NCBI RefSeq assembly: GCF_000264995.1
Contig: NW_006767433.1
Span: 4,136,967-4,200,966, forward strand
DNA from: Punctularia strigosozonata HHB-11173 SS5
Lineage: Eukaryota; Basidiomycota; Agaricomycetes; Corticiales; Punctulariaceae
Length of the DNA stretch: 64,000 nt
Reading direction: 5' to 3'
Positions 37,171 through 53,200 of this stretch are shown here, piece by piece. Position numbers and translations under genes: made by a program. Position 1 is the first letter of the stretch. The number at the start of each line of letters is the position of its first letter. The notes under the pieces were generated by a model. The model ran no database searches. It had not been told where the DNA came from and saw nothing but the letters and a program-made list of their open reading frames with translations.

Positions 37171-38249
37171 AAGCGTAAAGAAAACCTTTCCAGCACCGCG
37201 TTCTCTCGCTTTCGCCGCTTGCCCTGGGGGTTTGTGGGTCCACTTCCTGTCTTATCGTTCGTTCGCGCTATGGTTTGGCGTCACCATTTCAGTATATCGT
37301 AGATTGTGGATTTCCTTCATTTGGGATGGAACGTCTGATCTTTCTCGATGAGGCGGCATGCAGTATTTATGCCTGACACTGCAGGAAACAGGCTGAATCT
37401 GGGCAAAATATATCAGAAATAATTGGCAATATAATTCAGAAAAGCCATGAGCTAAGTTGACCCAAAATGTCAAACTTTACCTGAGCTTGCTCAGGTATCT
37501 CGGATGCCGGTAATTAGTAAGCATCAGCAACCGTGGCGGTGCTAAGTTCGTGGCGATGCGTGTCAAACTCTTTTTTTAAGAATGCGATCTACTCGTGCAA
37601 TGGCAATGCAAGCGAAGGTGAAGGCGCGGGGCACCCGCCTTTTTTCCAGTACTGCAAAGAGACCGGGAAAGTAGTCATATTTTTGACATATATCTGCATC
37701 CTTGAGATAAATCTGTCATAACTTCAAACTAGCTTAGCTGCAAATATGTCATTAACGACCATAGTTATTATACAATAGTTTTGTTATATGTTTTCCCCAG
37801 ATTCCAGGGATTTCCCGCTGTGTGAGTGAACACCTGACTCCGCCTACCTGTGCCATTTAGTGCCACTCAACACGCGTTGCGACAGGTGAGACATTCACCA
37901 TCTTCTCGATGGCTTGAATGGCAAAAGGCACCAGGAAGCTTGAAGGTCGCTGAGCCGCCGGGAATCGCTTGCGTTACGAGACAACCGTGTGGTATATATC
38001 ACATTACATCTGCGGAGTGTTCCGCGTTGCCATTCCATTCCCCACAAAGGGGAGACCGGAGACGAAGCACATACTCCATGTGACGAGCGATTTACCAATG
38101 CAGCTGCGGTCCCGACCAGATTCAGGTACCCCTTCAGAACTACAGTACAAAGCACACTCGCGCTGTACGGCGTGCGATAAGCTTCAAACTTCAGGGTCGA
38201 TCCGAAGCTGCGTGACTTTATCGATGGCCAAACGCTGCAGAATGGCGAA
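37171..38249. other. Intergenic, partly AT-rich, nothing recognised
   Basis: The first 650 bp downstream of hydrophobin 1 are AT-rich with many stops. The rest has overlapping frames on both strands with no known motif. Confidence 0.45.
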
Positions 38250-38531
38250 TCAAGGTGGACGCATTGAACAATGGCCTGCGCGCCAGCAACATCCGTCCGA
38301 GATCCGAGCAAAAGCCAAAGAAGCGGCCCACGAGGAAGCCGAAGGACTCGTAAGACGACGCATGTGCACTCCTTGATACGACCGAATATCTCTGTGATCG
38401 ATGTGCGCAAACAGGCGATATTCGGTGATGTTGGAGAGGCGGGGAGAGATTGGCCGGTCCAACCTCCTCGGACACGGGGTGGTGACGGCAAGCAACAGCA
38501 GGCAGACGCGTAGTAGGCCGGATGCCGTCAT
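38250..38531 (-). CDS. Possible small secreted protein
   Basis: The ATG at 38531 begins MTASGLLRVCLLLLAVTTPC, a good signal peptide, and the frame stays open for 93 codons to 38250. A CATAAAATAT motif lies about 155 bp upstream. The mature part is Arg-, Ser- and Cys-containing without a known pattern. Other frames are open across the same bases, so this is a candidate only. Confidence 0.3.
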   Translation of the reverse strand: MTASGLLRVCLLLLAVTTPCPRRLDRPISPRLSNITEYRLFAHIDHRDIRSYQGVHMRRLTSPSASSWAASLAFARISDGCCWRAGHCSMRPP

Positions 38532-38814
38532 GGGCGGTGAAGCGGAACTTCTGAACGTCGGCGGAGGCGATGGAACGTGGGGCACGATGCAAAACGGCGA
38601 GCAGAAGAGGGGGCGAGAGGCGCGAGGACGGAAGCAGAATACACGGATCGACAAAATTATGTAGGCGTGCCGGCGGACCCCGGATATTTTATGCGGCCAT
38701 GGGCCGTCGCGACATATCAACAAAGGCATCCGTCCGGTTGGCCGACAACGGTTATTTTTCTTTCAAGGCTCCTCCGCTAGCCCTACCGTAGCCAGCCAGC
38801 CAGGACGCGCCAAG

Positions 38815-39366
38815 ATGCACCCGCCAGCCGCGATGGACTTCGAGCTCGCCATGGGCCGCGACAGCAGCGTGCATAACCCGCCGGGGATCGACCATCTCAC
38901 CGTCGATCCCGACGAAGTCCGGCCCATCTTCCTGCGCGTGCACAACGTCATGCGTATGCGGGACGCCTCGCGACGCCATTGGGACATCGTATTCTACGTC
39001 GAGGCCAAGGACTGGTTCCAGCCCTCGTTCGTCGGCCAGCGCGCGATACGGCAGATGCACTGCGTGAAGGAGATCGGGATGGACCACTACACCAACTGGG
39101 GCCCGAAGACGCATTCGATGCTCGCAACGCCGGTGCACCGGCAGGCGTACGAGGACGACGTGCGGGAGATTCAGGTCGGAGTGTTGAGCTTCGATGAAAG
39201 GAGGATGCTCGAAGAGATATCTACGAAGACCGCGGTTCGTCATCCGGGCGGGATCTCGCTCAACGACCAGGCATGGGCAGAGGCGGTCTTGAAGACTGGG
39301 GTGGCGCAGGGGATTTTTGAGGAAGAGGACGTCGAGCGGGCGTTAGCGAACGCACGCAGCCTGTGA
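38815..39366 (+). CDS. Small intronless conserved-looking protein
   Basis: An uninterrupted 183-codon frame with strong coding composition. Motifs include VRPIFLRVHNVMRMRDASRR, WDIVFYVEAKDWFQPSFVG and MHCVKEIGMDHYTNWGPKTH. There is no signal peptide and no membrane segment. The middle is rich in Trp, His and Tyr, and the C-terminus is acidic (FEEEDVERALANARSL). I do not recognise a family. A transcription start would fit the GC-rich stretch just upstream. The lack of introns is unusual among its neighbours. Confidence 0.7.
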   Translation: MHPPAAMDFELAMGRDSSVHNPPGIDHLTVDPDEVRPIFLRVHNVMRMRDASRRHWDIVFYVEAKDWFQPSFVGQRAIRQMHCVKEIGMDHYTNWGPKTHSMLATPVHRQAYEDDVREIQVGVLSFDERRMLEEISTKTAVRHPGGISLNDQAWAEAVLKTGVAQGIFEEEDVERALANARSL

Positions 39367-40021
39367 CGGGCTTTATATGGCGGACTTATACGAGATGGTG
39401 AGTCGAGCCTGGCCCTTGTGCGCTCATAATTGACATTTGCTGGATGCAGCCAATGATGTTGCTAAGAGAACGAAGTGTCTGGGTGGCCAAGCTTCACGGG
39501 GCGGATGCCGGTCTAGACCCACCGACCTTCGTTCTCCACAAAGATCGTACTCCGACTCGTCTATGCCCGCTTCTCTCGGTTCTGGGTCTTCGCTATCTGA
39601 TCATCCCTGCTATCCTCACGCTTTCATCGCAGCAATTGCCTATGCTTATATCCTCACCCACGTTCACATTTACATTCAACTCACCCTTACTATGCCACTT
39701 CACCCTTGACCATCGTATTGTATGCCTGTAGTATATATACTCATCTGCATGAGCTTCGTATATAATATCCTGTTCTCGTCCGGTTCGCGTCGTGCTCGCA
39801 AACCATCATTGCGGCGGGGTGACGCGTCGCAAGTATTCCATGTTCGCGTCCAGGCCGCGTGTCCCATGAGAATGATGCGAAACGAGGAGCTCGATAGAGG
39901 TCGTCGCATTCGGCAACATCGTCACTGTTGTAGTCTAGCCCAAACGTTGAACATCAATTTGTGGAGAAAGGATACGAGGAACGCTTACGTAGGGAAGCCT
40001 CGTCGAACGAATGCCACCGCT
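39367..40021. other. Intergenic space between convergent genes, nothing recognised
   Basis: Plus-strand frames at 39437-40408 run antisense to the RPB9 gene or across pyrimidine-rich sequence and have no known motif. Confidence 0.45.
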
Positions 40022-40707
40022 TTATTCGTTCAATGTCAGGTCTTCCGCTCTGCTACCGACGGGTACCGAAGGGTCCATAAAGTTCTTTCCGCAATTTGTA
40101 CAGACATAGAAGAGAATCATGCGAGTCTCCTTGCGCTTCGACTGGTCCTGGAAGTACACCGCGCTACAAGGACAACGACCACCGTCAGTTTCGACTCGCT
40201 GTCTAGTGTTCGAGACAACAGTGACGCACTCCTCGTGGTGGCAATCCGGGCATTCAATCTGAGCGTGAGCCTATGTACGATTTCTCAGTTTCTTTCCTCA
40301 GCACGTACATGCGTGGAGCTGACCAAGGTCGGGTCCGTGCCTAAATCAGTCGTGACACCAATCTTTTCTCTGTTGTCCACTCGTCAAACTATGCAAGCGT
40401 GTCATTGAAAGCGGCCACTCACTTGGTGACGGTAAGCAAGTCGTTCCTATATACACACTGATTATCTCCAATCTCCTCATATGCGCAAACGCGGCACGCC
40501 GAGACCATCACGCGCCGTTGCGGGTCCGCCTTCGGGTACAGCAAGTTGTTGCATTCCGAACAGAAATGCAGAGACGCCTATGATCATGACGTTGCCATAG
40601 GCGTGAAGTAAGATATCGGAGGTATTCGTATATTCATAGTCACGATAGAACGAGAGCCGTCAGAATACGACGAATTTATATTCAGGGGTAGGTAGGGTAC
40701 CGACCAT
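40022..40707 (-). CDS. RPB9: RNA polymerase II subunit RPB9
   Basis: Join (minus) 40707..40705, 40577..40423, 40369..40309, 40258..40230, 40163..40022. This gives 129 residues with closed phases. The N-terminal zinc ribbon reads LHFCSECNNLLYPKADPQRR, then ACRVCAYEEIGDNQCVYRND (C-x2-C, C-x2-C). The linker is GVTTDLGTDPTL. The C-terminal TFIIS-like ribbon reads IECPDCHHEDAVYFQDQSKR, followed by MILFYVCTNCGKNF. RPB9 affects start-site choice, elongation and proofreading of Pol II. The first exon in this model is the ATG alone, followed by a GTCGGT donor. It gives the expected start MASLHF but is the least certain part. The LINE begins about 88 bp upstream of this start codon. Confidence 0.92.
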
Positions 40708-40916
40708 GCAAGATAGTCGCCGGAGGGAAGTGACTGGTGCTGACTAATCACTCAGCGCTCTCTGTTCAGCTTCTTCAGTACTGGTTCTTACTTCATCAGG
40801 GCCTCCTGTTTGCTTCCACTCCGTTTGACATGACGACGCATCAACCTCTCCTCTCCAAGCGAGCCTGCATAGACCCGGTGCATCACGCTTCCCAACCATC
40901 CCATGTCCCATCCCCT

Positions 40917-41168
40917 CCCAACGAGACCGTTGGGCGACTCCGCATTTCCCGCCTGACGAGAGCGTCATGGCAGATCACTCGGACTACCTTTCCCGCCTGA
41001 CGAGAGCGTCACTCGTCAGGATGCCCTACCCCAACGAGACCGTTGGGCGACTCCACCTTTCCCGCCTGACGAGAGCGTCATGGCAGATCACTCGGACCAC
41101 CTTTCCCGCCTGACGAGAGCGTCATGGCATATCTCACCGACAACACTGTTCCCAACGAGACCGTTGGG
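40917..41168 (+). repeat. 5' UTR monomers of alternating hairpins in the LINE
   Basis: Hairpin A is CCCAACGAGACCGTTGGG (7-bp stem) and occurs at 40917, 41030 and 41151. Hairpin B is TGACGAGAGCGTCA (5-bp stem) and occurs at 40954, 40998, 41067 and 41111. The order is A-B-B-A-B-B-A. Distances repeat: A to first B is 37 bases in both units, and B to B is 44 in one and 44 in the other. So there are two full monomers of 113 and 121 bp plus a third A. All hairpins have AGAC or AGAG loops. CCTGACGAG at 40996 can also pair with CTCGTCAGG at 41012. Confidence 0.85.
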
Positions 41169-41537
41169 CGACGTCATGATACGTTTGTGATGTTCTGACA
41201 CCTGTTCTGCGGATGGATGCCTCGGACCTGGTCCGCATGACGCCCCTTCGATGTTGCTATCGCGAGTTTCTTGCGAGGTTTGCTCCCCCTTGCTCTTGCT
41301 TGCGTTGCTCGTCCTACATCATGCCTATTGTAGCGTGTCGACGCACGCTGGTTTATGTACTCCACTTCCGATATGTGATGCGAATTGCCCCACCGACGTG
41401 GGCTCCTTGAGTGCCCCTATCCGTTACGCCTGCCATGTTCGACATTCGACGGCGACGCCTGTCCATGTTCGCGTTCCCAAAGATAGCATCGTTTGGCTTA
41501 AGAGGTCGCCCGAAGGCTCTCTCACCGCGCACCCGTA

Positions 41538-43148
41538 ATGTCCGCTCCTACTCCCGAACTGCCTGAAGTACTACCCCCCTCCTCGTCCCCTCCACAATCC
41601 GCTAGTCGCAAGCAATTATTTAGCTCTCTTTCCTCCCCCAATCTACGTGTCACTCGGGCAGCCTCCGCGAAGACTACTAGCATGCCGGGTGTTAGGGAGG
41701 ATCTGGCTGTCCACGCATCAGCTCACACCTTTGCGCTCCCGGTGCCTTCTACCTCTGCCTCTGTCCTCCCCGCGGCCTCCGTCCATACTGCTCCCGAGCC
41801 AAGCATTGATGCTGCACTGGAAGATACACCCTCCGCGTCCCAGGACGACACGCTGCCTTCCCCCTCGACTCTTCATGGCGGTGCATCCTCGTCTGTCGTT
41901 TCGGAGTCGACAAGTGCTACGAAACGTAAAGGGAAGGCGAAGGCTACAGAGCCCAAGTCCTCGATCGCCGAAGCTGCACCTTCTCAGAGTGCTATGAATG
42001 AGGCAGGGCTCCTACATCCAGGCGATGTGTCAGCTAAAGCATCTGTTTCCATACTCCTGCACAACGACCTCTCGATCGCGACTCGGCTATCTGATGCTCA
42101 GGGGGAGGTCGCCGCGCTGCGCGGTGAGATCGTGAACTACGCAAAGATTCTCGACGACGTCAAGACTACGATACCTTCCTCCTCCCGCTCCTTGCCAACC
42201 GATTCTTCCCCGGACCTTGCTAGCTTCTCCGAACAGGTTCGCGACGCATTCCAGGAACATCGCGATTACGTTGAGCGTTTATCTTCGACACTGGCTACGA
42301 GTGGCTCTCAAACTCTGCTTGCTGTCCAGCGCGTCGAAGAAGTGGCAGATCTGCTTTCATCACTGGACGCCCGCATAGCTACAGTTGAAAAGAGCCTCGA
42401 GGTGATTCCAGCGCTGCAACGTTCCATCGACCAATCCGTGCCTGCCCTTGACGTCACCCGGCAGCTCCGGGATCTCGAAAAGGGACTCCGTGAGTTCGTG
42501 CAGATCGAGTGCGCATCTGTGAAAGCCTCTGCTGCCGTAGCTTCTGTCCGCGCCCGCGCGTCAAGCGAACAACCCGTTCACCATCTACCCGCTCAACACC
42601 TTGCGTCTTCACATCCCCAAGCCCCTCCGCTGGCCCTCGATAGTGACCGCCAGAAACGCCGGCGAGAGCTCTCTCCTGCCCGTCCTCTGAATGTTCATGG
42701 GTCAACAGCCTATGCGCCTCACATCCCCTTGCCCATGCCCCGCGAACGAGGCCCACTGCCGTTATCCTTACTGAATCCTGGTCGCGGGTCTGAAATGTCT
42801 CCCCCGCGCGTCGCCCCACCCCCGAGTAGTGTTCCTTCTATATCCAGCCCCTCGGCCACTCTTGTCTTCAACCTTCCCCCTGAGGTCGAAGGCGGCGCAC
42901 ACTGGCTGTTTGACCTCATCTTCTCCAGCGTACGCGACGGAAGAGGAACGTTCGAGAAGGCGGCTAGTAATCCTACTCGGCGTAACAATAAACTCTTGGT
43001 CCAGATGAAGACCCTCGCCGCTGCCCGTGCTTTCAAGGGATCTTTCGAACGTGCTCCTCCGGAAGGCTTCCGTCGTGCCACGGTAGACGTTCTTGACGAC
43101 GAGCCATTACGTTCGCGTAACCATGTGATCCCTGCACCTGTACCGTGA
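41538..43148 (+). CDS. LINE ORF1 protein
   Basis: A 536-residue product. The N-terminal third is Ser/Thr/Pro-rich and disordered with a short basic cluster (TKRKGKAKATEPKS). The middle (about 170-340) is heptad-like and likely a coiled coil (AALRGEIVNYAKILDDVKT, QRVEEVADLLSSLDARIATV). The C-terminal part has an RRM-like start, SATLVFNLPPEVEGGAHWLF, with KLLVQMKTLAAARAFKGSF matching the second RNP position. No CCHC knuckle is present. ORF1 proteins of LINEs bind the element's RNA and form multimers. The stop TGA overlaps the start of the ORF2 frame. Confidence 0.85.
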   Translation: MSAPTPELPEVLPPSSSPPQSASRKQLFSSLSSPNLRVTRAASAKTTSMPGVREDLAVHASAHTFALPVPSTSASVLPAASVHTAPEPSIDAALEDTPSASQDDTLPSPSTLHGGASSSVVSESTSATKRKGKAKATEPKSSIAEAAPSQSAMNEAGLLHPGDVSAKASVSILLHNDLSIATRLSDAQGEVAALRGEIVNYAKILDDVKTTIPSSSRSLPTDSSPDLASFSEQVRDAFQEHRDYVERLSSTLATSGSQTLLAVQRVEEVADLLSSLDARIATVEKSLEVIPALQRSIDQSVPALDVTRQLRDLEKGLREFVQIECASVKASAAVASVRARASSEQPVHHLPAQHLASSHPQAPPLALDSDRQKRRRELSPARPLNVHGSTAYAPHIPLPMPRERGPLPLSLLNPGRGSEMSPPRVAPPPSSVPSISSPSATLVFNLPPEVEGGAHWLFDLIFSSVRDGRGTFEKAASNPTRRNNKLLVQMKTLAAARAFKGSFERAPPEGFRRATVDVLDDEPLRSRNHVIPAPVP

Positions 43149-46100
43149 GCGCCCTGTGCCACGTCCACTGCTACCTTTCTCATTGTGTGCATGTAGTGGA
43201 GCCATCGCCCCGTCGTTGCCTATGTCACCCGCACACCTATCCCCGTTACAACGACGTACTGACGGATCGGCGTGAGTACACCGTTCCCGGTCGTCTGTGT
43301 CTGTTCCCAAACTGTACCTGTATAATTAGATCACCATACAATCTACGCATCGTGGCTTGGAATGTCAACGGCTGGCTTCCTATAAAATGGTCATGGCCCG
43401 AGTTTCTACCCCTCACGTCCGGCGACATAATCATACTCCAAGAAACGTGGCTTCGCCCCCGGCAAGAGCAAGCGCTCCGTGTCCCGTCCAACTTTCACGC
43501 CCATGCTTTCTCCCGGCCTGCCCGTGATTCCTTCGAAAACCCCAGGGGAGGCGTTCTTGTGCTCATTCGAGATGGTGTCGCCTGCAAGATCCGTTCTGAC
43601 TTCTCGGTACCAGATATTGCTGTTCTCGAGCTCGAGCATGTCATTGTCATTGGAGCGTATCTGGCACCTGACGGGTCCCCCTCTATTGCCCGCGCATCAC
43701 TACCCCCTGAACAGCATGTGTGGGAGACAGTGTCCTATTTCGCTCTTACGGGCGATAAGCCTGTCCTTCTGATGGGTGACCTCAATGCGAGAGTCGCGGC
43801 GCGACAGACCTCCATACTCCATGACCTACCGCACCCCGGGCTACCGCGCACGTCCAGGGACGAAAAGGTGAACTCGCGAGGGATTCGCCTCCTCCAGCAG
43901 GCGTCCGAAGCCGACATGGCGATACTGAATGGATCCAGTATTGACATCCATGACGAAGCGCAGTTCACTTGCTTCCAGGGACGCGGGGACTCGACTGTCG
44001 ACCTTGCTCTCATGTCCCGATCTGGCACGCGTCTGATCCATAGCCTCGCAGTGCAGCACGCTGGGGAGTATTCTGACCATTCTCGTCTCGTTGTTACCAT
44101 CGCGAATGCAACATCAATCCCAACACTATACCCCACGCCGTCCCGCGGCACTGGCGTCTCGCTCACACTTCCACCTCAAGTCGATGCGCGTCCTTCCCCT
44201 CTCGATCAGGTGCTCGAAGAGACTAAGTCCTCGGTCCCTTCTCCTGAGGCGGCTGTACACGCTCTGTATGGCCCTCTGCACTTCAACACCATGCCGATTA
44301 CGGTACACATCGATGGATCCTGCGTCAAAACACCGTACGCGAGTGCTGGCGCAGGGGTGTTCTGGGCGAGGGGAGCTGCCAAGAATGTGTCTGCACGCGT
44401 GCCCGGTAAACAGACGAACAACAGAGCCGAACTCTACGCCGTCCTACTGTGCTTACTCGATTCCGATCCCCTACGCAACCTCCGGATTGTGACCGACTCT
44501 GAATACGCTATTCGACTCTGCTGCTACGGCGCGCCCAAGGCTGCTGAGCGGGGATGGGACAATGACCTTATGCTCCAAGATGTTGTGGCACTTCTCCGAG
44601 CACGTCTTGCGCGTACCCATTTTGTCTGGGTTAAAGGTCACAGCCGTCATGATGCTAACGATGCCGCGGATGCCTTGGCAAAAGCAGGTACATCGCTGCC
44701 GCCTGTTGGGGATTATCAGCGCATTGCGATGCCCAATTGGCCCACGCCGGCTCTACTCGGTCTTGATGACTCCAGGACCATCGACCTGCCGAAGGTCTAT
44801 ACCGAGCTCCTTCCGGTGCCCAAGCCGAAGCCTGGCATACCGTCGCAAGTCCCTCTCCACGATGCCAGTATCGATGAGTCTGCCCTGCGTCCCCCCGTTC
44901 GACCTGCACACCGCGGCCGTCTGAAAGCGCGGCGCGAGAAGGCTGACAACCTCAGGCGTCTCATCCAAGCCGCCAAAGAGTCCTCCGGCCGCTACTGGAA
45001 GGTCATGTTTGAACTTGTTGCTGATCCCGTACATGTCCCTCCACCGGTGCACATTTCTCAGCTGCGCGACGTCTTTGAAGCCCGCATGAACCCTGACCCC
45101 ATCCCCGACCCATCCTTTGACCATCTCCATCACGAGCTCAACCGTCTCCTTGTGGCGTGCATGCCCGAGCGCACGCAGGACCGCACGCTGGGTCAACACT
45201 TCTCAAGACTGTTTGAGACAGGAGATGTCGAATGGTTGAAAAAGCGTCTACACGACAAGGGTGCACGCGGAGCTGCTGGGGTTGACGACGCTTCGTATGG
45301 AGATCTCATGGCTATCCCAAATGCTCAGCTCCTCTACCTGTACAACGAGTGCATTTCCCACAACAACGCCCCCAAGCAGTGGATGGTGACGCTCCTAGTG
45401 GGAGTACTTAAACGAGGAAAACCGCGGGCCGATGCGGACAGCTATCGTATCATTGGCCTTGAATGCTGCCTACTCAAGGGACTAACGCTCCTCATAGAAC
45501 GTAGAATCCGTACCTGGGCGGCAGAGTTAAACATCATCCCGCGGTCGCAGAATGGTTTCCGGCCCGGCTACCGTACTAACAACAACGCCTTCATCTTCCG
45601 TAGCATGGTGGAAGCATGCCGAGCCAAGGGCCAAACGTTGTACGTTGCCGTGATGGACCTCACGAATGCGTTCCCCCGTACAGATCATGACACCCTATGG
45701 TCCAAGCTGTATCGCATGGGCGCCTCAGGTCCTCTCATTGACTGGCTACGGATGCTTTACAGCAGCATGCGTTACTCCGTACGGCTGGGAAAGCAGTATT
45801 CGGAACTCTTTCGCTCTCATGTCGGTATTCTCGCGGGTGACTCTGCCTCTCCAATGTTATGGATACTCTACATGGCTGATCTCGCAATCCCTGAGCACAA
45901 TGACGACGTGGTCCTCGCAGGGGAGCGTGTATCTCACTTCGAACAGGCCGACGACCTTAAGGTCACCTCCACTTCTCTCAGTGGTGTTCAAGCGAAGATC
46001 AACACTGTTGTCGCCTGGTGTGCACGTAACCTCATGATTGTCAACCATATCAAGTCGCATATGATGGCGTTTGGCCCGCTGCCGCTGCATATTCCCCGAA

Positions 46101-47398
46101 TCTTCCTCGGTGACCAGGAACTCGCATGGACCGACGTCGACACACATGTCGGCACTACCTTCGCGACCACTAGCCGGAACATACTGCAGCAGCACTACGT
46201 TCGCAAACGTTCCGATGCCAACACCATCGCCAACATCACATTCGCTGTGCGGGCCAAGATTGGTGATCTCCGTCCGACCGACGCGTTCAAGCTGTACATG
46301 GCACGGATTGATCCTCACCTCACCCACGCCTGCGAGATCGCGCTCGATATCGATCCTGTTCTCCTACGCATGCTTGAAGGCGTACAGTTCCGCTACCTTC
46401 GTCGGGCGCTCGGTCTCACGGCGCGCTCTCACACTGTTGTTCTTTTCACAGAGACAGGTCTCATGCCGCTCCGCCACCGCCGCCTCATACTGGCTCTACG
46501 CTATCTCGTTCACCTGTGCTCTCTTCCTGCGGACCACTATGCGTACTTGGCCCTGCAGCAGTCATTTGCCCTCGCACATGATGGTTCACCTTGTTGGGTA
46601 CTCGACCTCCGGTATGTCCTCAGCCGTTTGCCGGGCCCAAGTCACGGCGCGCACTCCCTGGAACAGCTCCGTGATCCCGAATACGTCCTCTCACTAATCA
46701 AAATCGTCGAGAATCAACTCGATGCGTGGCTCACCGACCGTATCGATACCTCACCTAAGCTAGAGCTCCTCCGAGGTCGCATGTACATTGGGAAGAAGGG
46801 CACGGTGACTTTCCCCGTTAGATGCAGACGAGCTTATCTGGATGTTCCGGTGCACGAGCACCGCATTAGCATCACCAAAATCATGACTTCCGACCACCTC
46901 CTCTCGGTAGAACGAATGCGTTGGTCAGAGCGTAACCGCCCCAAGGTCCCTCGACACTGGAGACTGTGCAGACTCTGCACAGACGAAATCGAAGACCCTG
47001 TCCATCTCCTTCTGTGCGACGCTTCCCCTGAACTGGCAGGATGTCGGTCCGCTTTCCTGGTGACCGTGTTTGGTATCCGCCCCGTGCTACGTCAGAAGTT
47101 CTCGCAACCTCGGGAGTTCATCATGTGGACAGCGGCAGATCAAGCATGTGTTCCGTACCTTGCTCAGTTCTTCCGCAACGCACTGCGTATCTTCGATGCT
47201 GTCGCACCGTATCGCCCTCCTGTAATGTCGATTCATTCTCCGCTCCACATCGGCCCACAGCCGCATGCCCCTGCATACCCGGTCCCCACAGAGTTGCCCA
47301 CGGGTGCCACCATTCGCGAGATTGACGACGGTGACGGGCTGGACAGCGAACTGGACAGCGAAGATGAACTCGATCCGATTGCTGAAGCAGAGGAGTAA
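43121..47398 (+). CDS. LINE ORF2: endonuclease, RNase H, reverse transcriptase
   Basis: The frame is open from 43121; the figures here count residues from 43145. The AP endonuclease lies at about 67-320: RIVAWNVNGW, ILQETWL, LLMGDLNAR, STVDLALMS and YSDHSRLVV. RNase H follows at about 382-518: VHIDGSC, TNNRAELYAV, RIVTDSEYAI and WVKGHSRHDANDAADALAKA, with all catalytic acids. The RT lies at about 750-1000. It has DLTNAFPRTD (motif A), GILAGDSASP (motif B) and FEQADDLKV (motif C, QADD instead of the usual F/YADD). A C-x2-C-x8-H-x3-C knuckle is at about 1275. RNase H ahead of RT is unusual. No AUG precedes the endonuclease, so translation must use frameshifting, re-initiation or a non-AUG start. 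Confidence 0.95.
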   Translation, partial: PCDPCTCTVSALCHVHCYLSHCVHVVEPSPRRCLCHPHTYPRYNDVLTDRREYTVPGRLCLFPNCTCIIRSPYNLRIVAWNVNGWLPIKWSWPEFLPLTSGDIIILQETWLRPRQEQALRVPSNFHAHAFSRPARDSFENPRGGVLVLIRDGVACKIRSDFSVPDIAVLELEHVIVIGAYLAPDGSPSIARASLPPEQHVWETVSYFALTGDKPVLLMGDLNARVAARQTSILHDLPHPGLPRTSRDEKVNSRGIRLLQQASEADMAILNGSSIDIHDEAQFTCFQGRGDSTVDLALMSRSGTRLIHSLAVQHAGEYSDHSRLVVTIANATSIPTLYPTPSRGTGVSLTLPPQVDARPSPLDQVLEETKSSVPSPEAAVHALYGPLHFNTMPITVHIDGSCVKTPYASAGAGVFWARGAAKNVSARVPGKQTNNRAELYAVLLCLLDSDPLRNLRIVTDSEYAIRLCCYGAPKAAERGWDNDLMLQDVVALLRARLARTHFVWVKGHSRHDANDAADALAKAGTSLPPVGDYQRIAMPNWPTPALLGLDDSRTIDLPKVYTELLPVPKPKPGIPSQVPLHDASIDESALRPPVRPAHRGRLKARREKADNLRRLIQAAKESSGRYWKVMFELVADPVHVPPPVHISQLRDVFEARMNPDPIPDPSFDHLHHELNRLLVACMPERTQDRTLGQHFSRLFETGDVEWLKKRLHDKGARGAAGVDDASYGDLMAIPNAQLLYLYNECISHNNAPKQWMVTLLVGVLKRGKPRADADSYRIIGLECCLLKGLTLLIERRIRTWAAELNIIPRSQNGFRPGYRTNNNAFIFRSMVEACRAKGQTLYVAVMDLTNAFPRTDHDTLWSKLYRMGASGPLIDWLRMLYSSMRYSVRLGKQYSELFRSHVGILAGDSASPMLWILYMADLAIPEHNDDVVLAGERVSHFEQADDLKVTSTSLSGVQAKINTVVAWCARNLMIVNHIKSHMMAFGPLPLHIPRIFLGDQELAWTDVDTHVGTTFATTSRNILQQHYVRKRSDANTIANITFAVRAKIGDLRPTDAFKLYMARIDPHLTHACEIALDIDPVLLRMLEGVQFRYLRRALGLTARSHTVVLFTETGLMPLRHRRLILALRYLVHLCSLPADHYAYLALQQSFALAHDGSPCWVLDLRYVLSRLPGPSHGAHSLEQLRDPEYVLSLIKIVENQLDAWLTDRIDTSPKLELLRGRMYIGKKGTVTFPVRCRRAYLDVPVHEHRISITKIMTSDHLLSVERMRWSERNRPKVPRHWRLCRLCTDEIEDPVHLLLCDASPELAGCRSAFLVTVFGIRPVLRQKFSQPREFIMWTAADQACVPYLAQFFRNALRIFDAVAPYRPPVMSIHSPLHIGPQPHAPAYPVPTELPTGATIREIDDGDGLDSELDSEDELDPIAEAEE

Positions 47399-47673
47399 CG
47401 TGGAACTCGTCTTGCGTCTCATGTATTTAGCTACTGTCAGCCTAATGCCTTCTCGTCGACTACGAACCACGCGTCCTGTGTCTTTGAATACCGTACACCG
47501 TCACACATACGCCCGGAGTCGGAGTGGGCGCGACACGGTTATCGGCTGTCCTCGAGCGCGGGGGTATTGCCTCTCCATGCCAATCCAAGACTGTTCCCGG
47601 ATGTTGTGTGCTGTCATGCCCGGGTGTGCCGTTTCGCTGCACGTCGTGCGGGGACGTTTCGTGTGATGCTTTT

Positions 47674-47730
47674 CCCCCCACCCCCATTTTGTTTTTCCCT
47701 ACAAGGGTTTTTTGCTGAGGGGTGGGTGGG
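47674..47730 (+). other. Conserved hairpin in the LINE 3' UTR
   Basis: The arms are CCCCCCACCCCC (47674-47685) and GGGGTGGGTGGG (47719-47730), followed by a T run. The same design recurs in the diverged copy at 181-225, where CCCCCACCCCGC pairs with GCGGGGTGGTCGGGG. It is a candidate for the structure that the RT recognises in priming. Confidence 0.6.
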
Positions 47731-47991
47731 TTTTTATTGCACTATCGGAAGCCCCTGTACTGACACGCGGCGACGGCTGAAGTGGGACGCCGCTGGGTAA
47801 TGTATTGCACATAGTAGCACATACATGTACCTAGTTTACATGCACCAGTGCTGAAGCGGCGTGTCGGCTGTAAAACAGCTCACGGGGGCCGTGGATTCAC
47901 TGTGTGCGCCAAGCCGTGCGTATTGACGTGCGGTGCGGCAACCGGTTGTTCCGCTATTGGGACCGCGCCGGAAATATACCTACCTACCTAC

Positions 47992-49478
47992 CTTACTTCG
48001 GGTCATTATTATTACAGGGTGGTCGCCGCTAAGAAAGCTCTGGCTGTTAACGGTAGCTCACTGCTGTGTATGACATACCGTTTCAACTCTCGTCGTCCAT
48101 TGGCGGCAGCGAGCCTCCATGCATGGCTTGATACGCTGTGGTCGAATTGGTCTCACGACACGGCGTAACCAAGATAGCACCATGTCAGATGCTCACAACG
48201 CTGTTGACTGGTACCCGGCATAATGCCGACTACCAAGGAGTACTTTGGCATTATGTGGACACGAGGCGACCATACATCGGATTATCTACCATACGCCAAT
48301 AGCGGTGTTATGCTCGCGTTCTTAGGCCCGACGGTTGCATCTGGCCCACCACCAAGGCAAACTCTGCCCCGCTTCCGCCGCGTGGGTTCAAGACCACTAT
48401 CCTCCACGTTTATCCGGTGATCTGCACGGCCGCAATTCAGGTCTACTCTCCTGAACATCCACATTCATGTTCATGTATTCCGAATGCACGATTGCATGCA
48501 TTGCTTGGAGCATGCGTTGACTGCTGGCCTTTCATCGATCAACGTTTATATCCCGTGCACCCTGAGAACACTCTTTCTCAACTCAAAAGGGATTTAGCTT
48601 CTTTGCTCTGCGTGCGACCATCCTGGAGGAATGGAGGGCAGGGGAATCTGTGCATGATCTACACGCGGATAACTGGCAAGTAGAATCTCTGGGGCGTCAT
48701 TGCGATATATATCTACCAGCGTACATCCGCGGTGACATTCCTTCAGATCGAAGGTCTCGGGGTTACGCCAAGCACTTGCGTCCATCCCAGCATGTGTACG
48801 TGCCAGGTCCCCTGTCACAGTGCCCCACCAGCATCTGGCCCCGGCTGCGAGCGACTGCGGTTATTTCGATTCCTTCGCTTCGAATTCTATGAAGCGCTCA
48901 TCACCGAGGCTTCCTTGATGAGTCTGTGTTCCGCGTTTCAGCGCCGACGTCGTCCTCGGTAAACTCATTTGCGAATTCGAGGAGAGCAGTTTACCGATTC
49001 TGCGTACTCTTTCGTAACTTGTGACAAGTAGGTATGTATAGTCAATCTGTGATGGAAATCTAGCTTGCAACGCCGTCGTGGGATGGATCGAGCGCGGTGG
49101 ACTTTGGCCGGTGCTTCTTCCGCATGCCCTTTTCTCAGGACGCCCAATATTAATGACCGTCGCGCCTCGCAAGTCCACATTTCACAGCCGAGCACGGCGC
49201 ATCACGGAGAACCTTTCGGTGCGTCCCAGAACGAACCACGGTTACCTCTTTGGGGCGCTCAAAACCGCCCATCCACCGCCCCCCTGGGAGGAGCGAATCA
49301 TTCGCCCCGTCGGCTAATTGATGCTGACTGGGACGTCGTTATATTCGGATGACTGCCGTCCCCTTCGTGTCACTCGGAGAGAACTCTTTAAAAGAGCAGC
49401 GCCTTCGCGCCCCGGCGCCCCCAGTCGAGTATCCCAAAGACCCGATCACCCTTGCGGCCGCCCATTATTATCTATACA
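47992..49478. other. Intergenic region right of the LINE, no gene recognised
   Basis: Short frames on both strands show no known motif. A 9-bp inverted repeat, CATAATGCC and GGCATTATG, lies at about 48220-48257. The last 100 bp form the hydrophobin 2 promoter and carry a TTTAAAAG motif near 49388. Confidence 0.45.
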
Positions 49479-50015
49479 ATGAAGCTTGGATTCGCCCTCT
49501 CTTTACTCTTTGCTATCGTGGCCACTGTCGCCGCTTCCGCGATCGGCGCCAACGCCGACCGGATGAAGCGCGGGCTCCCGCCTCTTGCGCCTCGCCAGCC
49601 ATACTCTGCCTCCCGCGTCTCCGGTGAGTGACACTTCTCACTGTAAGCGGAAGCTTCGCTGACATGCAACCAACTGCAGCGGCCAAGAGGGCATCACCGT
49701 CAGGGTCACCTTCGCAATGTAACACGGGCTCAATCCAATGCTGCAACTCCGTCACCAAGTCCGACGATCCTGGAGCCGCTGGTATCCTTGGTCTCCTTGG
49801 TATAGTCTTGAGCGCTGTCGAGGATATCGGTCTGGGCTGTTCACCGCTTTCGGCCGTCGGCCTTGGCGGTAACAGCTGCAGCGCTAGTCCTGTGTGCTGT
49901 GAGAACAACTCCTTCGTACGCGAATCGCTTCGAACAACAATATTTGCACACTGACGATCACTTTCAGAACGGATTGGTATCCATCGGCTGCGTGCCCATC
50001 AACATCAGCCTCTAG
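49479..50015 (+). CDS. Class I hydrophobin 2
   Basis: Join 49479..49623, 49680..49915, 49968..50015, giving 142 residues. The signal peptide is MKLGFALSLLFAIVATVAAS. The eight cysteines appear in PSQCNTGSIQCCNSV, GLGCSPLSAV, GNSCSASPVCCENNSF and SIGCVPINISL. The Leu/Gly/Ile loop between the third and fourth cysteines is shorter than in hydrophobin 1. The intron after NNSF (phase 0) has no counterpart in hydrophobin 1, while the first intron is shared. It is a secreted amphipathic coat protein. Confidence 0.96.
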
Positions 50016-50216
50016 ACACCTGTAGGGTCCGGGCGTTTACTGTCTTTTCGTGGCATAGACATGCTTTGCGAACGGTTTTTAGTTGAAGTAGAATATCATC
50101 GTCTAATTCTTATCGCTTCTGTCCTGTGTTTCGGAGATACGTGGCGCTTCGCGAAGGTGAAGCAAACGGATAGAGACGCAAAAAGCCGCATTGAAAACAT
50201 CAGAATGTGATTGTCG

Positions 50217-53200
50217 CTAAGGTCTAATGAACAACATTAGAAAATCGCGTTTCTTCCATGGGGAGATTGGAGTATATTGGTACGAGGAATCGTCTCGAAG
50301 CAAGATGTTGCTAAAGATAGCCGCTGTGGTCGGCAGGGAATCAGATTTTAGTACAATTTCAGAGCAAGCCACACCCCTCACCAAGTTCGTTCGCTCTGGC
50401 AGCGGGATCATCGCCCTGCTGGCTTATGAAGTGCAACAGGGATGTGACAGATATCCAGACCTAGAATACGTGAGAATATGTGCGCCGGGCCAACCTTTAT
50501 TACTCACGTTAACAGACGCGGCAGGAAGTTCACTCAAGCACTGTCGGTTCGTCAGCTAGAGAAGGCATCAGTGAGGTGAAAGACGTACATCGATTGCCAT
50601 ATCTCTATCGAGGATTTGGGCGCAGCGCTCGTGAAACTGCCACGGTATTACTGGCTCCGAGAGGGAGTCCAGCATCTGTTTTAAAGCCTCTCCAAAAGCG
50701 AGTATATGGGTGGTATCGGGGGTTTCGATATCAGGCATAAGAGGGAATTCGTCACCAGTATCGAGGCACTGAAAGGGTGATCAGAAGATACAAGGCGGCG
50801 TGGCGAGGGATGCCTACATCTCGAATAGACACGAGTATGTCTTCCGCCGTGTCCGATAGGAACAGCTTTTGCTGCGAGATGTGATGGGTCCAGCCGCTGT
50901 ACCATATCAGCGGTAAGAGCAACTTACCACATGCTCCTTATGATCCACTATCCACGATGCATGGTCCATGAGCCAATTGGCCAATCTCATGGGTTCGCGC
51001 GGTGCGTTGTTCGCCTTTTCCTCTGGAAGCAGATCCTTCGACTCCAGCGAACGGATTGGACCGGGAAGACGGGTGAGCGTCTTCAACGAGTTGCCAAAAC
51101 ACGTTCGCTCTGGATGCGACGAGTCAAAGGAAGTTCGCTTAGCGGAGAGACCACGAACCATACTCCCCGGTGAGGAGAACGAAGTGATCTTTGCCAAGCT
51201 CTGTATGTAAAATTAGGGTGCACGCCAGTTCAGGCGCCGTAGTCAATGATTCTGCCGTTGTCCTGTCAACACGACAGGTTATGGAAACCTCGCAGGTTTC
51301 TTCGGGAAGTAGGAGAGCCTAGTAGAGCATCTGATTAGTTGATCGCCAAAAATTGAAAATGTACGACGTCACTGCAAGAGGTTCGATTTTCAACCATTTC
51401 GGATCTGTTTCGAAACAAAACATGAAAAGACATTCTTCGTACGTGCTCGGTTACTGACGCAGTGATTCATGGGGGTCTGCTGCGACGAACCGGAAGGCGC
51501 AAGGTTGCTATACCGAATAGTCTCAGGTAGCGACAGTGGCAATTTCACAAGGCGTACCTTTCCTACATTCCGAACTTGTATTGATCTTGTCGCAGGTCTA
51601 TTGTATCTACTCGCGTCCCAAGCGTCATTCACAAACATGTTGCATATCGGACGAAATGAATGAGACCGACCTCACTTTGCCGAGGTCAACACTAGTCTCC
51701 GATACCTTCAACTTGGGCGGCTCCTCAAACTCTTCGAAGTCGTAAACCGTTTTGTATAGACGGCCCAGTACACGGTCGTAACCATCTGTTCGGTGATTAT
51801 CGCACTGAGCAAAGCTCCGTCTATCAGTACCGCGCAATTTTGGGGCAGCGGAGGCTGACTTTGATGATGAACTCCGCAGATACCGGTTTATGGTCGCTTT
51901 GACTTATCTCGGGATGACTCGCGTACGACAGTTGCTCGAAGCTAACGGTTGGCTCGACTATGGTCAAAATCCTGTCACACCACGCTGGTTTTCGCCTTGA
52001 AAGAACCTCAGCTACGTGTCTGCGAAGAAGGGACGGCTCGCATGCTTACTTCATGTCATAGCCCATCTTGTCTGTCATAACTCCTGGTGCGAACCGATAT
52101 GTGCTGTGAAAGTAGCAAGGAATGAGCAATTCTCCTCAAGAGATGAAATCTAGAATACACTCACGGTAAATGAGCAATCTGATGCTCCGAAAAGCCAACG
52201 AATGCCTTGCTCTTCGTTATGGCTATTTTCAGCTACGCACGGGAATTCAGTATTCATGCAGGCAGACACCTTCTGCGAGCCTGCGAACCTGATCAAATCT
52301 TTGTACCGAGTCCAAGTAAATATCTCTCGCAGCAGAACCTAGGATGTTTCGCAGGTCCTGGTCCGGTAAATCGATCCGATAGTTCAAATCTATGCTTTTC
52401 AAGTGTTAGCCATGACTTTGAGCATATTTTAACAATACATGCCTCCCTATGGGATGAGCACTTAGTTGAGGCGAGCAGTAGCCGATATATGCAGTGCTTG
52501 CTCACCATCCAGAACAGGCAATCGCTCTCAAATACGCTATATGCTTCTGTATATTGCGAGGAGCTCGGGTTCCAAGCACCGTTGAAGACAAGTCGACGAG
52601 ACAGGTCGTGAAAATCAGCATTCCGGCGGTCGACCATCTCGTCGAATGCAGCGAGATGTGCGTTCACGAAGGTCAGCACAGTCGGAACAGAGGTGCTGTC
52701 GCTCAAAAGCGGAGCCAGCGTGATCCGTACGGCAGTGGCGCCCTTGTTGCCCTTGCCATGAAGTCAATAAGTGATATCTTAGGTATCCCCGTAGCTCGAA
52801 TCCCTGACCATTAGACCCATGATACCGGCTCCTACGGAACAGGTCTTGACGTCAATCACCGACGGACGGAGACGTTTCTTAACCATAACGATGATTAGCA
52901 TCCCGACGAGCTGCTTTGAAGCTAGCTGCAACAAGCATCAGCGACTCATCTCTTGCATATGAACCTTCAGTTTGACCTTTTCGTACAGCTCTGCTTTCTC
53001 GCCAAGGCCAGCGAGAACAGCAGCGACCCACGAGTCTTCCCTCGTCGTGTCCGTCGCATATACCAGCGCTCCGGTCGACAGATCAAGTTCCTGAAAGCCG
53101 AGGACGAGGAAATCCGGATCACTTTCTTCCTCCTTGACCGGACTCGCGACAGCGACGGCATCGGTTTCTTCCTTTGCGAAATCTTCATTCGGAGGAGCGG

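Follow-up and report, generated by a model that had tools for sequence, protein, structure and literature searches.

Long interspersed nuclear elements (LINEs) generally move by a cycle in which the endonuclease makes a nick, the reverse transcriptase (RT) uses that nick to prime synthesis on the tail, and RNase H releases the complementary DNA (cDNA). LINE-1 is not known to carry an RNase H itself, and an RNase H downstream of the RT is a trait of the Tad1 clade, as the initial annotation of the locus described below also held. Host RNase H2 promotes LINE-1 retrotransposition (PMC6068448), and the reason why some LINEs carry an RNase H of their own has been termed enigmatic (PMC5348765). In plant and oomycete L1 elements that have an archaeal-type RNase H, it lies at the C-terminal end of the second open reading frame (ORF2), after a CCHC motif (PMC5348765). 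An RNase H upstream of the RT has been published for the oomycete element Utopia, where it was called unique by Kojima and Jurka (2015; PMC4640811), whose comparison used Repbase as the source of representative RNases H of every clade. Here we describe a LINE of the basidiomycete Punctularia strigosozonata HHB-11173 SS5 whose ORF2 has the same order behind an apurinic/apyrimidinic (AP)-type endonuclease. It lies in a stretch of 64,000 nucleotides (contig NW_006767433.1, positions 4,136,967 to 4,200,966), hereafter the window.

Domain order of ORF2

The frame and its domains are located as follows, with coordinates counted along the window and residues along ORF2.

43145..47398, + strand: ORF2 frame of 1417 codons, listed with a GTG start
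43358..44080, + strand: AP-type endonuclease domain, residues 72-312 (PF03372, 9e-13)
44297..44692, + strand: RNase H domain, residues 385-516 (Pfam, PDB sequence search, alignment and fold)
45425..46069, + strand: reverse transcriptase domain, residues 761-975 (Pfam and PDB sequence search)
46967..47017, + strand: CCHC-like zinc knuckle, residues 1275-1291 (pattern search)

Pfam and motif searches agree with the initial annotation on the frame, coordinates and motifs of ORF2. The Pfam matches, all above curated cut-offs, run in the order Exo_endo_phos (72-312, 9e-13), RNase_H (385-516, 4.1e-20) and RVT_1 (761-975, 3.3e-20). The RNase H motifs HIDGS, NNRAEL, TDSEY, WVKGHS and AADALA fall at residues 388, 425, 450, 495 and 507, and the RT motifs DLTNAFP, GDSASP and QADD at 838, 898 and 934. 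In a PDB sequence search residues 385-516 matched human RNase H1 (E 2e-10) and residues ~690-960 matched R2 proteins. The domain first placed at 382-518 does score as an RNase H. A hidden RNase H after the RT is ruled out, as Pfam shows no second RNase H in ORF2 up to E 1; apart from RNase_H, the only RNase H-like family listed is RVT_3, which matches weakly (0.072) on the 385-516 stretch itself. By eye, a CCHC-like pattern is also present in the translation of a relic copy, L002.

Modelled from eight rows, the RNase H domain has a mean predicted local distance difference test (pLDDT) score of 80.8. Its best structural match is human RNase H1 (2qkk_N, E 1.4e-10, template modelling score 0.72/0.77), and E. 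coli RNase HI is likewise among the best. The D-E-D-H-D catalytic residues are invariant in 8/8 rows of an alignment of RNases H from the same genome (A1). In fold and catalytic residues the domain is thus an RNase H of type 1, and a chance motif match is ruled out by the Pfam, PDB sequence and fold results. We infer that the domain is enzymatically active, and likewise the step that it serves.

The first part of this order recurs in a diverged second family. Relic L003 carries the end of the endonuclease, the linker and the RNase H in one frame, 48% identical over ORF2 residues 211-522; 149 of 307 aligned residues agree with the window, 83 of 134 in the RNase H and 66 of 173 in the rest. Within the RNase H part the two differ at 39, 31 and 89 first, second and third codon positions, and YN00 gives nonsynonymous and synonymous divergences (dN and dS) of 0.35 and 1.52, with dS saturated by NG86; the RNase H has thus been under protein-level constraint in this place. 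Because so diverged a relic retains endonuclease then RNase H, the order is inherited, and together with the intact frame of 1417 codons this bears out the initial view that it is no artefact of a broken copy. Further relics (L002, L004, L005, L006, L012, L021/L022 and L025) match significantly in the C-terminal part only, and in L002, L004, L005 and L012 the shared sequence reaches the 3' terminus or its vicinity.

We conclude, with a probability of roughly 0.8, that this is a recently active, full-length fungal LINE with an ORF2 of endonuclease, RNase H, RT and CCHC knuckle, and that its RNase H was probably captured separately from the LINEs of the same genome in which RNase H follows RT.

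Other LINEs and RNases H of the genome

The genome searched (33.57 Mb, 32 contigs) contains 16 Pfam RNase_H matches. At 10 of the 16, a same-strand RVT_1 match precedes the RNase H by no more than ~2 kb, which is the usual order, and among loci with both Pfam domains the RNase H follows the RT in 10/10 other than the window (stops break the frames of three of these ten, on contigs C6, C15 and C18). The RNase H comes first at a single match, that of the window. The five matches without a nearby RVT_1 are L003, an orphan frame on C12, a gene on C9 that is split and resembles a two-domain host RNase H1, C5:414199, and C4:348437, a stretch that is partly N and in which RT-like motifs are visible by eye before the RNase H. 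The host-RNase H1-like gene at L068 seems to encode two RNase H domains in tandem, interrupted by introns.

For the LINEs in which RNase H follows RT we use the working names TadA, TadB and LINE2, by which no clade is meant. TadA and TadB have the same set of domains as the window element: the three scanned loci that extend upstream of the RT (L016, L019 and L030) carry RT together with an AP-type endonuclease, and L008 and L013 carry RNase H; the LINE2 locus L064 has RT and RNase H. In these elements, however, the RNase H is downstream of the RT, whereas that of the window is upstream, and ORF2 likewise departs from the RNase H-after-RT order of the Tad1 clade. The presence in one genome of an AP-endonuclease LINE whose RNase H precedes its RT and of LINEs with the opposite order provides a natural contrast that makes independent acquisition testable, and it suggests that an RNase H need not be tethered behind the RT.

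The RT of the window is 19-22% identical to 11 LINE RT rows of the same genome and 20-25% identical to two R2 RTs. The first of these values fits the separate lineage tentatively put forward in the initial annotation. In an RT tree, which included no named Tad1 reference, the branch of the window RT was very long (3.78) and separate from the RTs presumed to be Tad-like; this placement is unreliable and was not used. RT motif B reads AGDSASP where most aligned rows have QGDP, and motif C reads QADD (45944-45955, residues 934-937), against FADD or YADD in the aligned rows. QADD-type RTs are known from mushroom genomes.

Neither the viral_contigs nor the genome_contigs collection, which hold viruses and prokaryotes and are silent on fungi, contained relatives of the full ORF2 protein. 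The RNase H part (query residues 150-319) of an endonuclease-RNase H alignment, A3, was matched by 31 viral-contig loci, none of the 31 with a match to the element's endonuclease or RT, and a C-terminal alignment (A4) had no matches in these collections.

Comparison with described elements

Oomycete Utopia (PMC4640811) resembles the window ORF2 in having the RNase H upstream of the RT in one protein. It differs in that its restriction-like endonuclease is C-terminal, after the RT, whereas the window has an AP-type endonuclease at the N-terminus only; its targets are U2 small nuclear RNA genes, and its RNase H carries D-E-D-R-D where the window has H (in WVKGHS). The plant and oomycete L1 elements are likewise LINEs with an acquired cellular-type RNase H, theirs being C-terminal (PMC5348765). 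Placement of the RNase H upstream of the RT was already published, for Utopia. We provisionally regard the order seen here as new for an AP-endonuclease LINE, in a comparison that covered Utopia, plant and oomycete L1 and the other LINEs of the same genome.

There is a real chance, short of even, that the order is already on record, the element falling within one of the named fungal clades Inkcap and Deceiver and members of that clade having been described with the RNase H ahead of the RT. The extracts of PMC4427930 and PMC3411680 name both clades without giving their structure. Against such a description, Kojima and Jurka (2015; PMC4640811) called the upstream position unique to oomycete Utopia, and search results and extracts from the open literature, without subscription papers and Repbase, name no fungal element in which the RNase H precedes the RT; nothing on this order is found in the extracts of PMC5718144 and PMC7175516.

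The whole element and its copies

The element is larger than the span 43145-47398 first noted, and ORF1 upstream belongs to it. Its remaining parts, with target-site duplication (TSD) and untranslated regions (UTRs), are as follows.

about 40795..47993, + strand: whole LINE element, ~7.2 kb (ends from the TSD, a match on contig C22 and shared 3' ends)
40787..40794, + strand: TSD, left copy CTTACTTC, just before 40795
40917..41124, + strand: 5' UTR tandem repeat, 113-bp unit, 1.8 copies
41538..43148, + strand: ORF1, 536 amino acids
47399..47976, + strand: 3' UTR, common to many truncated copies
47977..47993, + strand: (TACC)n 3' tail, 4.2 units
47992..47999, + strand: TSD, right copy CTTACTTC, first two bases shared with the tail

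The 5' end at ~40795 is flush with the left TSD copy, and an independent match on C22 (L046) begins at 40797; the 3' end, at 47992-47994, is common to 34 of the 41 other matches listed for a 3' UTR query. The TSD is 6-8 bp long, since the first two bases of its right copy overlap the tail. No long terminal repeats (LTRs) were found, the sole repeat of at least 25 bases in 38000-52000 being the 5' UTR tandem repeat, with no inverted repeats. With endonuclease and RT in one ORF2 and without LTRs, the element is organized as a LINE. ORF1 has no Pfam family above cut-off, and its C-terminus matched nothing significantly in the PDB (best E 0.091). The 5' UTR tandem repeat holds a palindromic CCCAACG...CGTTGGG motif and could represent promoter units.

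Besides the window, at least 41 matches to the 3' UTR are present, at least two rows of which are adjacent pieces of one place. The 41 listed begin at 34 distinct 5' positions, and 15 of them are 98-100% identical to the window, with the weakest at 75-79%. Copies truncated at the 5' side that have a common 3' end are again as in a LINE. Apart from the TSDs, which were convincing in none of nine truncated copies, these are the marks of recent target-primed retrotransposition with frequent 5' truncation, and the element family has moved recently.

At L032, L033, L034 and L047-L049 (C9, C15, C5 and C8), a 5' UTR or ORF1 piece is joined to the 3' UTR without ORF2. These internally deleted derivatives are perhaps non-autonomous elements that use the proteins of a LINE. 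By eye, no GT donor lies at the breakpoints of L032, L033 or L034. The closest parallel to such domain-less derivatives is a pair of Inkcap LINE insertions in Marasmius oreades, which differ in 5' length and lack protein domains (PMC9674265).

Origin of the RNase H domain

In amino acid identity the window RNase H stands at 38-40% to the host RNase H1 domains (whose rows are approximate joins), 33-38% to the TadA/TadB rows, 32% to human, 29% to E. coli, 28% to the orphan and 17-18% to LINE2. In each of three trees the window and L003 group with RNase H1 rows and not with TadA/TadB, with supports of 90/92 when the group includes human and E. coli, 89/87 when E. coli and LINE2 are left out, and 88/90 with only the host gene, none of which reaches the program's starred level. 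By eye, the stretch PG-xQTNNRAEL is ungapped in both the window and the first host RNase H1 domain, a place at which the rows of TadA and TadB carry additional residues. We favour, without claiming it, a separate capture of the RNase H from a cellular RNase H1-type gene. Such a gene would be the most likely source of the domain, which would have come to lie between endonuclease and RT, by insertion or by a move, before at least two families separated. The window element carries an RNase H helper of its own, on the side of the endonuclease, and this would free the cDNA.

Several observations weigh against the conclusion that this is a recently active LINE with a separately captured RNase H. The approximately unbiased (AU) test does not decide between origins of the RNase H: it rejects neither a group of window, L003, TadA/TadB and orphan (p 0.233 and 0.185) nor, with E. 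coli outside the group, one of window, L003, host and human (p 0.309), and the unrooted tree from which E. coli and LINE2 were left out is compatible with both groupings. The junction from RNase H to RT is spanned by the window locus alone, in its intact frame; L003 ends after the RNase H, and the genome has no second locus spanning RNase H to RT. A model of RNase H and RT together had a mean pLDDT of 40.1, was discarded, and is silent on the packing of the domains. Convincing TSDs were found in 0/9 truncated copies examined. The truncated copies mapped cover the UTRs or, once, an ORF1 piece, and the window copy is thus unproven as their maker. Finally, ORF2 opens with GTG and has no AUG before the endonuclease, the first in-frame ATG being residue 210, inside that domain; residues 1 to ~62 may for this reason be non-protein.

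The AU values of 0.233 and 0.185 leave standing a move of the RNase H within LINEs, whether it was donated by an element in which RNase H follows RT or was an ancestral domain that changed place, and the identity to TadA/TadB is near that to host RNase H1. We consider such a move unlikely, if by no great distance, as RNase H1 rows are the partners of the window in the best trees and the ungapped PG-xQTNNRAEL is common to the first host RNase H1 domain, whereas the TadA/TadB rows differ by extra residues. It is very improbable that a one-off rearrangement or nested insertion placed the RNase H in a single LINE copy: RNase H then RT is seen at one locus only, but the frame is unbroken, the TSD is flush with the outer ends, and the series of endonuclease, linker and RNase H recurs in L003 at 48% identity with its RNase H constrained. 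Just as slight is the chance that the domain is an inactive structural tether of the kind known in retroviruses, or like the original RNase H of the Tat, Archon and Chronos LTR elements, which has lost catalytic residues (PMC5348765), as all five such residues are retained in the window and L003 and no part of L003 is better conserved than its RNase H.

Junction of ORF1 and ORF2

The stretch between the two frames has a poor codon score and candidate splice sites.

43145..43329, + strand: junction, with donors at 43145 and 43272 and acceptors ending at 43196 and 43329

The ORF1 stop lies inside GTGAGC and is overlapped by the listed ORF2 start, and the codon score of 43145-43329 is negative in the listed ORF2 frame. 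Removal of 43145-43329 (185 nt), or of 43145-43196 and 43272-43329 (52 and 58 nt), fuses ORF1 in frame to the endonuclease. In a post hoc test, such a path was present in 4/2000 dinucleotide shuffles of the spacer for introns of 45-75 nt and in 25/2000 for 45-200 nt. The two-intron path fails a preset branch-site rule, which was applied to that path only. A retroelement does not easily retain introns, and reinitiation or frameshifting may operate instead. We regard it as unlikely that the lineage both captured a host-type RNase H1 independently between endonuclease and RT and splices an ORF1-ORF2 fusion, with the unspliced RNA serving for ORF1 and as template. If true, a LINE that keeps spliceosomal introns by way of an unspliced RNA genome would represent a new way of LINE expression.

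Other features of the window

A 507-amino-acid protein of the window has no Pfam family and no PDB match, and a fungal transcription factor domain is also encoded. About 1.5 kb downstream of the insertion, at ~49479-50015, lies a hydrophobin gene (PF01185, 1.3e-25, for a protein spliced by eye).

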